Assembly: GCA_002710215.1 (NCBI GenBank)
Contig: PAJQ01000013.1
Span: 11,871-48,053, forward strand
DNA from: Chloroflexota bacterium
Lineage (GTDB): Bacteria; Chloroflexota; Dehalococcoidia; Lucifugimonadales; UBA3495
Length of the DNA stretch: 36,183 bases
Reading direction: 5' to 3'
The notes under the pieces were generated by a model. That model was not told where the DNA came from and searched no databases. It saw nothing but the letters and a program-made list of their open reading frames with translations. Below are positions 13,995-18,832 of this stretch, piece by piece. A program made the translations under genes and the position numbers. How positions within the stretch are numbered: the stretch's first letter is position 1; every line of letters begins with the position of its first letter.

Positions 13995-14849
13995 ATGATG
14001 CAGCAAAAGGGCAGGGCCAAGTTCGAAGCCGGACCAGTGACATTCATCGTTCAGCACGAGCTGTGGGACGGCAACGTTCAGGATCACTCGGACCAGGGAG
14101 TCGCCGTTCTAGTAGCGAATCAGGATGAAACGACGCTGTTGCGTTTCAATTGTTTCGACATCGAGAAGAGCTACGTATACGGCCCAGAAAAAGAGAACAA
14201 GCTCTTCCGCATGGATCACACCACCGATGGCAACCCGATCAACTGGACCATGCAGCAGATTCGAAACAATCTGTCCATCATGCTGGAGACGGCCGGGTAC
14301 GCCGACATCGCCAAAGACGTAGACGCGAAACAAGTTGAGAAGGTTCTTCCCGACGTCGAAGCCCATGCCCGCGAGATGTACGCCACGGGCCGGAACACCG
14401 TCAAGCACAACCGGGGCACCGACATATTTGAAGTCGGCAACATTCGGTTCGGCCTGGAGATGCGGCGGCAGGCCAGCGGCGACGGAGGCTTGGCCATCCA
14501 CGTTTTGGCCGACCTGGCCGGGACGCCGGGCCGTCATTACACGGAAGAAACCGAATTGCTGGCCTTTGATTGCTTCCGCGACGCTCCTCATTACCATTAC
14601 GGGCCCAGGAACAAGAATCACCGGATATTCTTCGACAAGACTTTGGTTCCAGACACCCTGGGGTGGACCCTGAAGCAGTTCAAGTCCCGGAAACTAGCCG
14701 CCATGATTGACCGGGCAGGATACCCCGGCGTCGCCGCCGACCTGGACCAAGAACTGATGGACTCCGTCATGCCCGCCATGGAAAAGAGGGCCCGGGAAAT
14801 GGAAGCCGCAGGTATACCCGCCGAGGTTACCGGCAACCTAAACGGCTAG
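13995..14849 (+). CDS. Uncharacterised protein with two tandem copies of one domain
   Basis: A 284-aa protein I cannot assign to a named family. It consists of two homologous halves, about residues 10-132 and 145-273. Each half starts with FE(A/V)G. Each then has a signature F-(N/D)-C-F-x5-Y-x-YGP (51-64 and 191-204). A WT-x-(K/Q)-Q segment, an AGY and a helical EA-x-AREM-x-A-type end follow. The first half is richer in acidic residues. No signal peptide or membrane segment is seen, so it is probably cytoplasmic. GGAGG lies 7 nt before ATG 13995; a second ATG follows directly. It is divergent from the lyase/CoA-transferase unit. The paired conserved Cys, Tyr and acidic residues could bind a ligand or metal, but this is only a guess. 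Confidence 0.75.
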   Translation: MMQQKGRAKFEAGPVTFIVQHELWDGNVQDHSDQGVAVLVANQDETTLLRFNCFDIEKSYVYGPEKENKLFRMDHTTDGNPINWTMQQIRNNLSIMLETAGYADIAKDVDAKQVEKVLPDVEAHAREMYATGRNTVKHNRGTDIFEVGNIRFGLEMRRQASGDGGLAIHVLADLAGTPGRHYTEETELLAFDCFRDAPHYHYGPRNKNHRIFFDKTLVPDTLGWTLKQFKSRKLAAMIDRAGYPGVAADLDQELMDSVMPAMEKRAREMEAAGIPAEVTGNLNG

Positions 14850-17549: not shown

Positions 17550-17580
17550 TCCCGAAATCTAATCCCATCTGGAGGCAGCG

Positions 17581-18105
17581 ATGACTACACCGGCTCCTTC
17601 CTCCCAGCCCGCATCCGCGGACATCATCTCTAGGTCCTTCTCCATGGAGGGCAGCGCCAAGATGATGGAGCGGCAGAACAAACAAGCCGAGATCCGCGGC
17701 TTCACCATCAACTGCGCCGAACGGGAGCCCATGGGAGATAATTCCGCTCCTTCGCCCTTGGCCTACTTCGCCTCATCCATCTTATTTTGAGAGATGACCC
17801 AAATTGAGCGGTACGCTCAAATGATGAAGGTTGAAGTCAGCAACGTAACAGCTACCATCGCTTTGCACGTGGCGTCCGAAGGTTCTGTGCTGGCCCAGAC
17901 GGTCCAAGCCCGGGCTGACAAGATCGAGATCCACTACGAGATAGAGTCTTCCAACACCCCGGCAGAGGTAGCCGGTCTTCTAAAAAACGCTAGGAACGGT
18001 TGCTACGTTAGGCAGACGATAGCCGACCCCAAACTGTTCCACGACACCGTCAACCTGAACGGTAGCCCCTTCAACATGGACGACTACCCGGCCCCAACCC
18101 GGTAA
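17581..18105 (+). CDS. OsmC-like protein with in-frame TGA at the catalytic Cys, probable selenoprotein
   Basis: One continuous frame of 174 residues is interrupted only by TGA at 17788-17790 (codon 70). Before it the frame reads through GDNSAPSPLAYFASSILF; after it, EMTQIERYAQMMKVEV. OsmC/Ohr-family thiol peroxidases have the redox Cys exactly here, after the APSPL..Y motif and before a TQ..RYA helix. The second family Cys is present at residue 141 (NGCYVRQTI). A hairpin suited to selenocysteine insertion follows the TGA (17804-17820). I read codon 70 as selenocysteine. The likely role is reduction of hydroperoxides or other electrophiles in the cytoplasm. GGAGG lies 5 nt before ATG 17581. 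Alternatives are a nonsense mutation, or a second start at 17794, which would lack the N-terminal strands. Confidence 0.82.
17788..17820 (+). promoter_or_regulatory. Candidate bacterial SECIS element (TGA plus stem-loop)
   Basis: TGA (17788-17790) is followed by 20 nt and then the loop GTA (17811-17813). The stem is a perfect 7 bp: TTGAGCG (17804-17810) with CGCTCAA (17814-17820). Bacterial SECIS hairpins lie within the coding region just after the UGA, with the apical loop roughly 16-37 nt downstream and a G among the first loop bases. All three conditions hold. The stem lies inside otherwise normal coding sequence. Confidence 0.75.
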
Positions 18106-18202: not shown

Positions 18203-18832
18203 GTGGCGCTAAAGAGCTTTGGTACCACGAACGTGGCCTGGGAAGAACGGGTGAACTTTGAGCGGTTTCGCACCGATCGATTGTCTCGTATAAAAGGTTT
18301 GCTTAAAGAGTCCGAACTTGGGGCGTTGCTGACCTTCGACATGAACAACATCCGGTACCAGACCGCCACCATCATCGGCACCTGGGTCCAGGACAAACTG
18401 GCGCGGTTCGTTCTTTTACCTCAAGATGACGAACCGGTCTCATGGCACTTTGGCTCGGCAGCACGGCACCATCAGCTCTACTGTCCTTGGTTGGGCGAGC
18501 GGTCCAGGGCCGGAATCTCCACCTTGCGGTGCGCCACGCCGCCGGAAGCTGGCCTGTCAGAGGACGTGGCGAAGAAGGTGCGGACTGACCTGGAGCAGAG
18601 AGGGATTCAGAACGAGCCCATTGGTGTGGAAGTGGTGGAAATGGAAGAAAAAGCGGTTGTCACCAAGGACGGAGTCGAAGTCATTACCCGCTTCCCGGCC
18701 GAAGAGTTTATTGTCGCCGGCCTGCGCTACTTCACCGCATCCGGCCCGTTGCCCACCGAACGGGAAGCCCAGTCCCACCTGAACCCGCCGTCCTCCGGCA
18801 TACCGGCGGGAATCGCCGGCGCCCATCCCTGA
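18203..18832 (+). pseudogene. M24 (Xaa-Pro peptidase-like) gene with large in-frame internal deletion
   Basis: A 209-aa product. Residues 1 to about 148 match the creatinase/prolidase N-terminal domain (WEERVNFERFRTDRL, LLTFDMNNIRYQT, YCPWL, GISTLR, IGVEVVEM). The sequence then jumps straight to the extreme C-terminus of the same family (EEKAVVTKDGVEVITRFPAEE and REAQSHLN). The whole metallopeptidase core of roughly 200 residues, with its five metal ligands, is missing, yet the frame is intact. The start is GTG 18203, with GGAGG 6 nt upstream. Full-length relatives are about 400 aa. The product cannot be an active peptidase, so it is either a deletion pseudogene or an assembly collapse. It sits between the OsmC-like gene and a dehydrogenase gene on the same strand. 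Confidence 0.7.

Follow-up and report, generated by a model that had tools for sequence, protein, structure and literature searches.

The locus and its protein family

The window analysed here is a 36,183-nucleotide stretch from a 3.07-Mb draft genome of a Chloroflexota bacterium that is distributed over 76 contigs. It contains a gene, referred to below as type A, whose reading frame had been described in an earlier note on this DNA as 174 codons broken only by a TGA at codon 70. Translation confirmed this and showed the frame to end in TAA (Table 1). The assignment to the OsmC family was borne out as well, with the Pfam OsmC model matching residues 52–149 across the TGA (55 bits, E 8.7e-15).

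Table 1. Features of the type A gene, in window coordinates.
Feature	Position	Strand	Basis
Shine-Dalgarno-like GGAGG preceding the ATG	17571–17575	+	Seen directly in the sequence
Sec-OsmC gene (type A, P0001), 174 codons and TAA	17581–18105	+	Translation with TGA as U; Pfam, NCBIfam, AlphaFold2
TGA codon 70, predicted selenocysteine at the peroxidatic Cys position	17788–17790	+	TGA or Cys in homologues; solved structures
Bacterial SECIS hairpin, 7-bp stem with GTA loop	17804–17820	+	Covariation in 63 distinct sequences
Cys141 codon, second redox residue (putative resolving Cys)	18001–18003	+	Invariance; alignment with the second Cys of OsmC/Ohr

The product, P0001, carries the motif U70-E-M-T73, which is of the form UxxT, and scores 139.3 bits against the NCBIfam model NF041052 (OsmC_like_Se, 'OsmC-related (seleno)protein') where the cut-off is 95. 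The window gene is therefore a new member of the known OsmC-like UxxT selenoprotein family and no new kind, sharing with it the fold, the Sec position, the motif and a downstream SECIS element. The statement that such proteins had been reported from marine samples was correct: three sequences of an 'OsmC-like protein' (PF02566, motif UxxT) were described from the Sargasso Sea in 2005 (Zhang et al., PMC1088965), five OsmC-like selenoprotein sequences followed in the GOS study of 2008 (PMC2398784), and the OsmC-like UxxT selenoprotein is repeated in reviews of 2022 and 2026. The further expectation that ordinary annotation would split and miss the gene held in part. Standard translation does yield two fragments, but NCBI-style annotation need not miss the gene because current lists and NCBIfam already include the family.

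Neighbouring genes in the window encode a luciferase-like monooxygenase, glyoxalase-fold proteins, an FAA hydrolase and a 3-hydroxyisobutyrate-dehydrogenase-like protein, which suggest a degradative region, though they are not conserved around the type A gene. A conserved gene neighbourhood that could serve as a clue to the substrate was not found, as flanking genes differ between species; in this sense the type A gene stands alone. Directly 3' of it lies a 209-residue open reading frame (18203–18832) with no Pfam match, whose closing TGA is separated from the next gene by 25 bases, and a protein with two copies of DUF7700 is encoded at 13995–14849, upstream of the glyoxalase-fold genes.

Fold and redox pair

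AlphaFold2 predicted a confident OsmC fold for P0001 (mean pLDDT 93.6), and the best Foldseek matches of this model were all OsmC/Ohr proteins. In the model, residue 70 falls inside a long central helix (59–81), and Cys141 sits where helix 127–140 ends. In profile comparisons with solved structures these two residues aligned with both redox cysteines of OsmC/Ohr, which agrees with the earlier placement of codon 70 at the reactive Cys of the family and of the retained second redox Cys at residue 141. They were also the only invariant columns among 53 divergent type A sequences. Type A thus combines an OsmC fold with two redox positions, as do the cysteine peroxidases Xylella Ohr and E. coli OsmC; it differs from them in having a predicted Sec at the peroxidatic position and in its low sequence identity of 10–20%. 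In Xylella Ohr the redox pair is Cys61 and Cys125, and Arg19 and Glu51 are catalytic. Compared at 10–20% identity, this Arg and Glu have no clear equivalents in type A, where Arg77 is kept in 70 of the 70 homologues from the same order.

The published UxxT motif takes Thr as the partner of Sec. Some type A homologues have UxxS or UxxV instead, and since invariance is confined to residue 70 and Cys141 while Thr is missing from some homologues, the distant Cys141 appears the more likely redox partner of Sec70, with which it would form a selenenylsulfide. The window gene in this way directs attention to Cys141.

An OsmC-fold selenoprotein of this kind might instead act in thiol-disulfide exchange or sulfur transfer, in the manner of YhfA, and have no peroxidase function. 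Among solved structures, 3cje, an OsmC-like protein from structural genomics, is nearest in sequence. A review files the family under COG1765/YhfA, whose activity is given as unknown in another paper (PMC5962072). The lack of a clear match to the catalytic Arg and Glu of Ohr points in the same direction. To our knowledge, some OsmC-family proteins are without demonstrated peroxidase activity. Against this stand the invariance of both peroxidase redox positions in the 53 sequences and the location of the predicted Sec at the peroxide-reacting position, where peroxidases typically bear it. We consider a role in thiol-disulfide exchange or sulfur transfer unlikely, though of some weight, and prefer the peroxidase.

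The SECIS hairpin

The hairpin TTGAGCG-GTA-CGCTCAA was found exactly where it had been described, with a perfect 7-bp stem and a loop starting 20 nt after the TGA. Its covariation was evaluated in 63 distinct homologous sequences against a null in which codons were exchanged among sequences sharing the same amino acid in a column (2000 shuffles). Paired cells made up 86.8% of the stem as opposed to 73.6 ± 1.1% in the shuffled sets, none of which (0/2000) was as high, and complete 7-bp stems were present in 40 of the 63 sequences where 8.3 were expected; in the remaining 23 the stem was imperfect. The corresponding z of 11.7 overstates the significance because the shuffles leave relatedness unmodelled, yet compensatory changes on both sides of the stem, from GAGC/GCTC to GAGA/TCTC, GTCC/GGAC and GGCA/TGCC, are plain to read. 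The loop starts with GT in 59/63 sequences. The type A hairpin accordingly has a small apical loop with a G just downstream of the UGA and is under selection. It differs from the SECIS of E. coli, in which a bulged U17 is required (PMC8659212), in that its perfect stem has no such bulge, and this counts against our explanation, as do the 23 imperfect stems. Rfam models gave no match within the window at the gathering threshold.

Conservation of the TGA codon and the selenocysteine machinery

A homologue of the type A gene was present in 79 of 247 genomes of the same order. Of those examined in detail, 69/70 had TGA at the aligned codon 70, some of them in near-complete genomes of one or two contigs; the exception was a distant paralogue with Cys at this codon (L091). 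The nearest named relative found, at 96% identity, is L047, which belongs to a Station ALOHA metagenome assembly assigned to Dehalococcoidia. Outside the order, 22 further Sec forms and several Cys forms were observed, the clearest of the latter being L180 with VAFCLITQ in place of VAFULLTQ. The exchange of TGA and Cys among relatives that would be anticipated for a selenoprotein is consequently seen both inside and outside the order. Relative to the three and five sequences of the 2005 and 2008 reports, the window gene thus belongs to a long-standing family of Chloroflexota, SAR202-like Dehalococcoidia among them, widespread where a few metagenome fragments were known, and now with a covarying SECIS and, in the invariant Cys141, a probable partner of Sec.

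Two type A sequences depart from this pattern. A decaying extra copy (L090, G053:C3:3465-5054), in a genome that keeps an intact one (L077), has Ser for the second Cys, an additional TGA and an A for the G of the SECIS loop. In L044 (G200:C42) a second TGA stands where relatives have Trp (NGCWVRAA to NGC-TGA-VRAA), through either degradation or error.

The machinery for selenocysteine insertion, which had been named as something to look for, is all encoded in the same genome. Full-length selB is found on contig C22 (347 bits), selA (554 bits) and tRNA-Sec (66 bits) on contig C21, and selD on C45 (385 bits). The selD gene has an in-frame TGA of its own (L012, G000:C45:8379-9299), as is also the case in known Sec-containing SelD. 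Among 40 related genomes, selB was detected in 37 and tRNA-Sec in 35 above curated cut-offs. In a sample of the phylum, selA occurred in 42 of the 43 genomes that carry type A or type B in the Sec form, compared with 322 of 400 overall (hypergeometric P = 6e-4), and the lone genome without it (G583) is an 85%-complete draft whose congeners have selA. This co-occurrence lends modest support to the use of Sec but leaves the Cys/Sec exchanges unexplained because Cys-form genomes also have selA; as these genomes carry both selB and selA, the two genes were uninformative in discriminating Sec from Cys forms.

Taken at face value, the two fragments produced by standard translation would fit a TGA that is a true stop, whether the gene is a pseudogene, has been split in two or contains a sequencing error. 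These readings are refuted by the conservation of the TGA, which 69 of 70 species-level homologues retain, including several from near-complete genomes assembled in one or two contigs. Purifying selection is moreover as strong downstream of the TGA (dN/dS 0.03–0.15) as upstream (0–0.20) in eight homologue pairs, the SECIS covaries, and the visibly decayed copy looks different, with its second Cys lost, an extra TGA and the loop G changed. A true stop is exceedingly improbable on these grounds. A recoded TGA standing for Trp or some other standard amino acid, for which long frames opened by reading through TGA would speak, deserves next to no credence and was rejected: 6 of the 29 main open reading frames of the window end in an ordinary TGA stop, all 143 Trp codons of the window are TGG with codon 70 as the only internal TGA, and homologues carry Cys and not Trp at this position. 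All the checks proposed in the earlier note turned out in its favour, and comparative sequence evidence supports the reading of codon 70 as selenocysteine.

Proposed mechanism

We hold with strong confidence that the type A gene would encode a small thiol peroxidase of OsmC/Ohr fold in which Sec replaces the peroxidatic Cys, the peroxidase activity being predicted from homology. Judging from the Sec genes of the genome and the covariation of the hairpin, SelB carrying Sec-tRNA would bind the hairpin 13 nt downstream of the UGA, leading to insertion of Sec at codon 70. The Ohr cycle begins with peroxide reduction by the peroxidatic Cys, which next condenses with the resolving Cys; a lipoylated protein then recycles the peroxidatic Cys (PMC5962072). 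By analogy, the selenolate of Sec70, midway along the central helix, would attack an organic hydroperoxide, and the resulting selenenic acid would condense with Cys141 to a selenenylsulfide. The latter could then be reduced back by a dithiol, perhaps that of a lipoylated protein as in Ohr.

A second OsmC gene with predicted selenocysteine at the other redox site

A Pfam search of the same genome, outside the window, identified a second OsmC gene with one TGA, termed type B (P0002; G000:C15:92947-93381, equal to L002:1378-1815). It has Cys53 at the first redox site and the TGA, codon 120, at the second (KRRUPLYGSVAVATP, motif UPLY). AlphaFold2 again predicted an OsmC fold (pLDDT 93.3), and profile-profile alignment matched residue 70 of type A to Cys53 of type B and Cys141 of type A to residue 120. 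All homologues examined from the same order (50/50) have TGA at the second site and Cys at the first. Reading across Chloroflexota added 23 Sec forms, for a total of 73, and 4 with Cys at that codon (L151, L159, L163 and L167). A type B tree with well-supported branches requires at least three Cys/Sec changes.

Both types share the OsmC fold, a predicted Sec, a SECIS roughly 20 nt after the TGA and a GT in its loop. They differ in layout, Cys53 and Sec120 of type B being the mirror image of Sec70 and Cys141 of type A. Two lineages that share a fold would therefore have acquired Sec at opposite members of the same redox pair. By homology, Cys53 would attack the peroxide and Sec120 resolve, or these roles would be swapped.

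NF041052 did not match P0002 at E 0.001 and so fell short of its cut-off. The best NCBIfam match was an Ohr model, at 27 bits where the cut-off is 240, and no NCBIfam selenoprotein model matches type B. A 2026 inventory of 119 families and subfamilies, in which a different Sec position makes a separate subfamily, includes OsmC only as UxxT. No description of type B was found in the open-access papers searched, and an earlier description elsewhere is possible. Apparently type B is the novel part while type A was already known, and we have good confidence that Chloroflexota encode a second, hitherto undescribed OsmC selenoprotein subfamily with Sec at the second site and Cys at the first. If so, types A and B amount to a natural experiment that could show which of the two redox positions gains from selenium, and its effect on peroxide attack, resolution or re-reduction can be asked with two natural enzymes of the same genome.

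In the type B hairpin, GGTCGC-NGTN-GCGACC, pairing was complete (100% of cells) across 71 sequences, all 71 of which had the loop core GT. Each of the bases flanking this core occupies a silent third codon position, in an Ala or a Val codon, and the two were complementary in 70/71 sequences (C-G in 50, G-C in 12 and A-T in 8; one had A-G), suggesting that the type B SECIS (e.g. L002:1752-1767) has an N-GU-N' closed loop that may be recognised by SelB. The peptide encoded by the stem, VAVAT or a near variant, is kept in the Sec forms of type B and absent from the four Cys forms.
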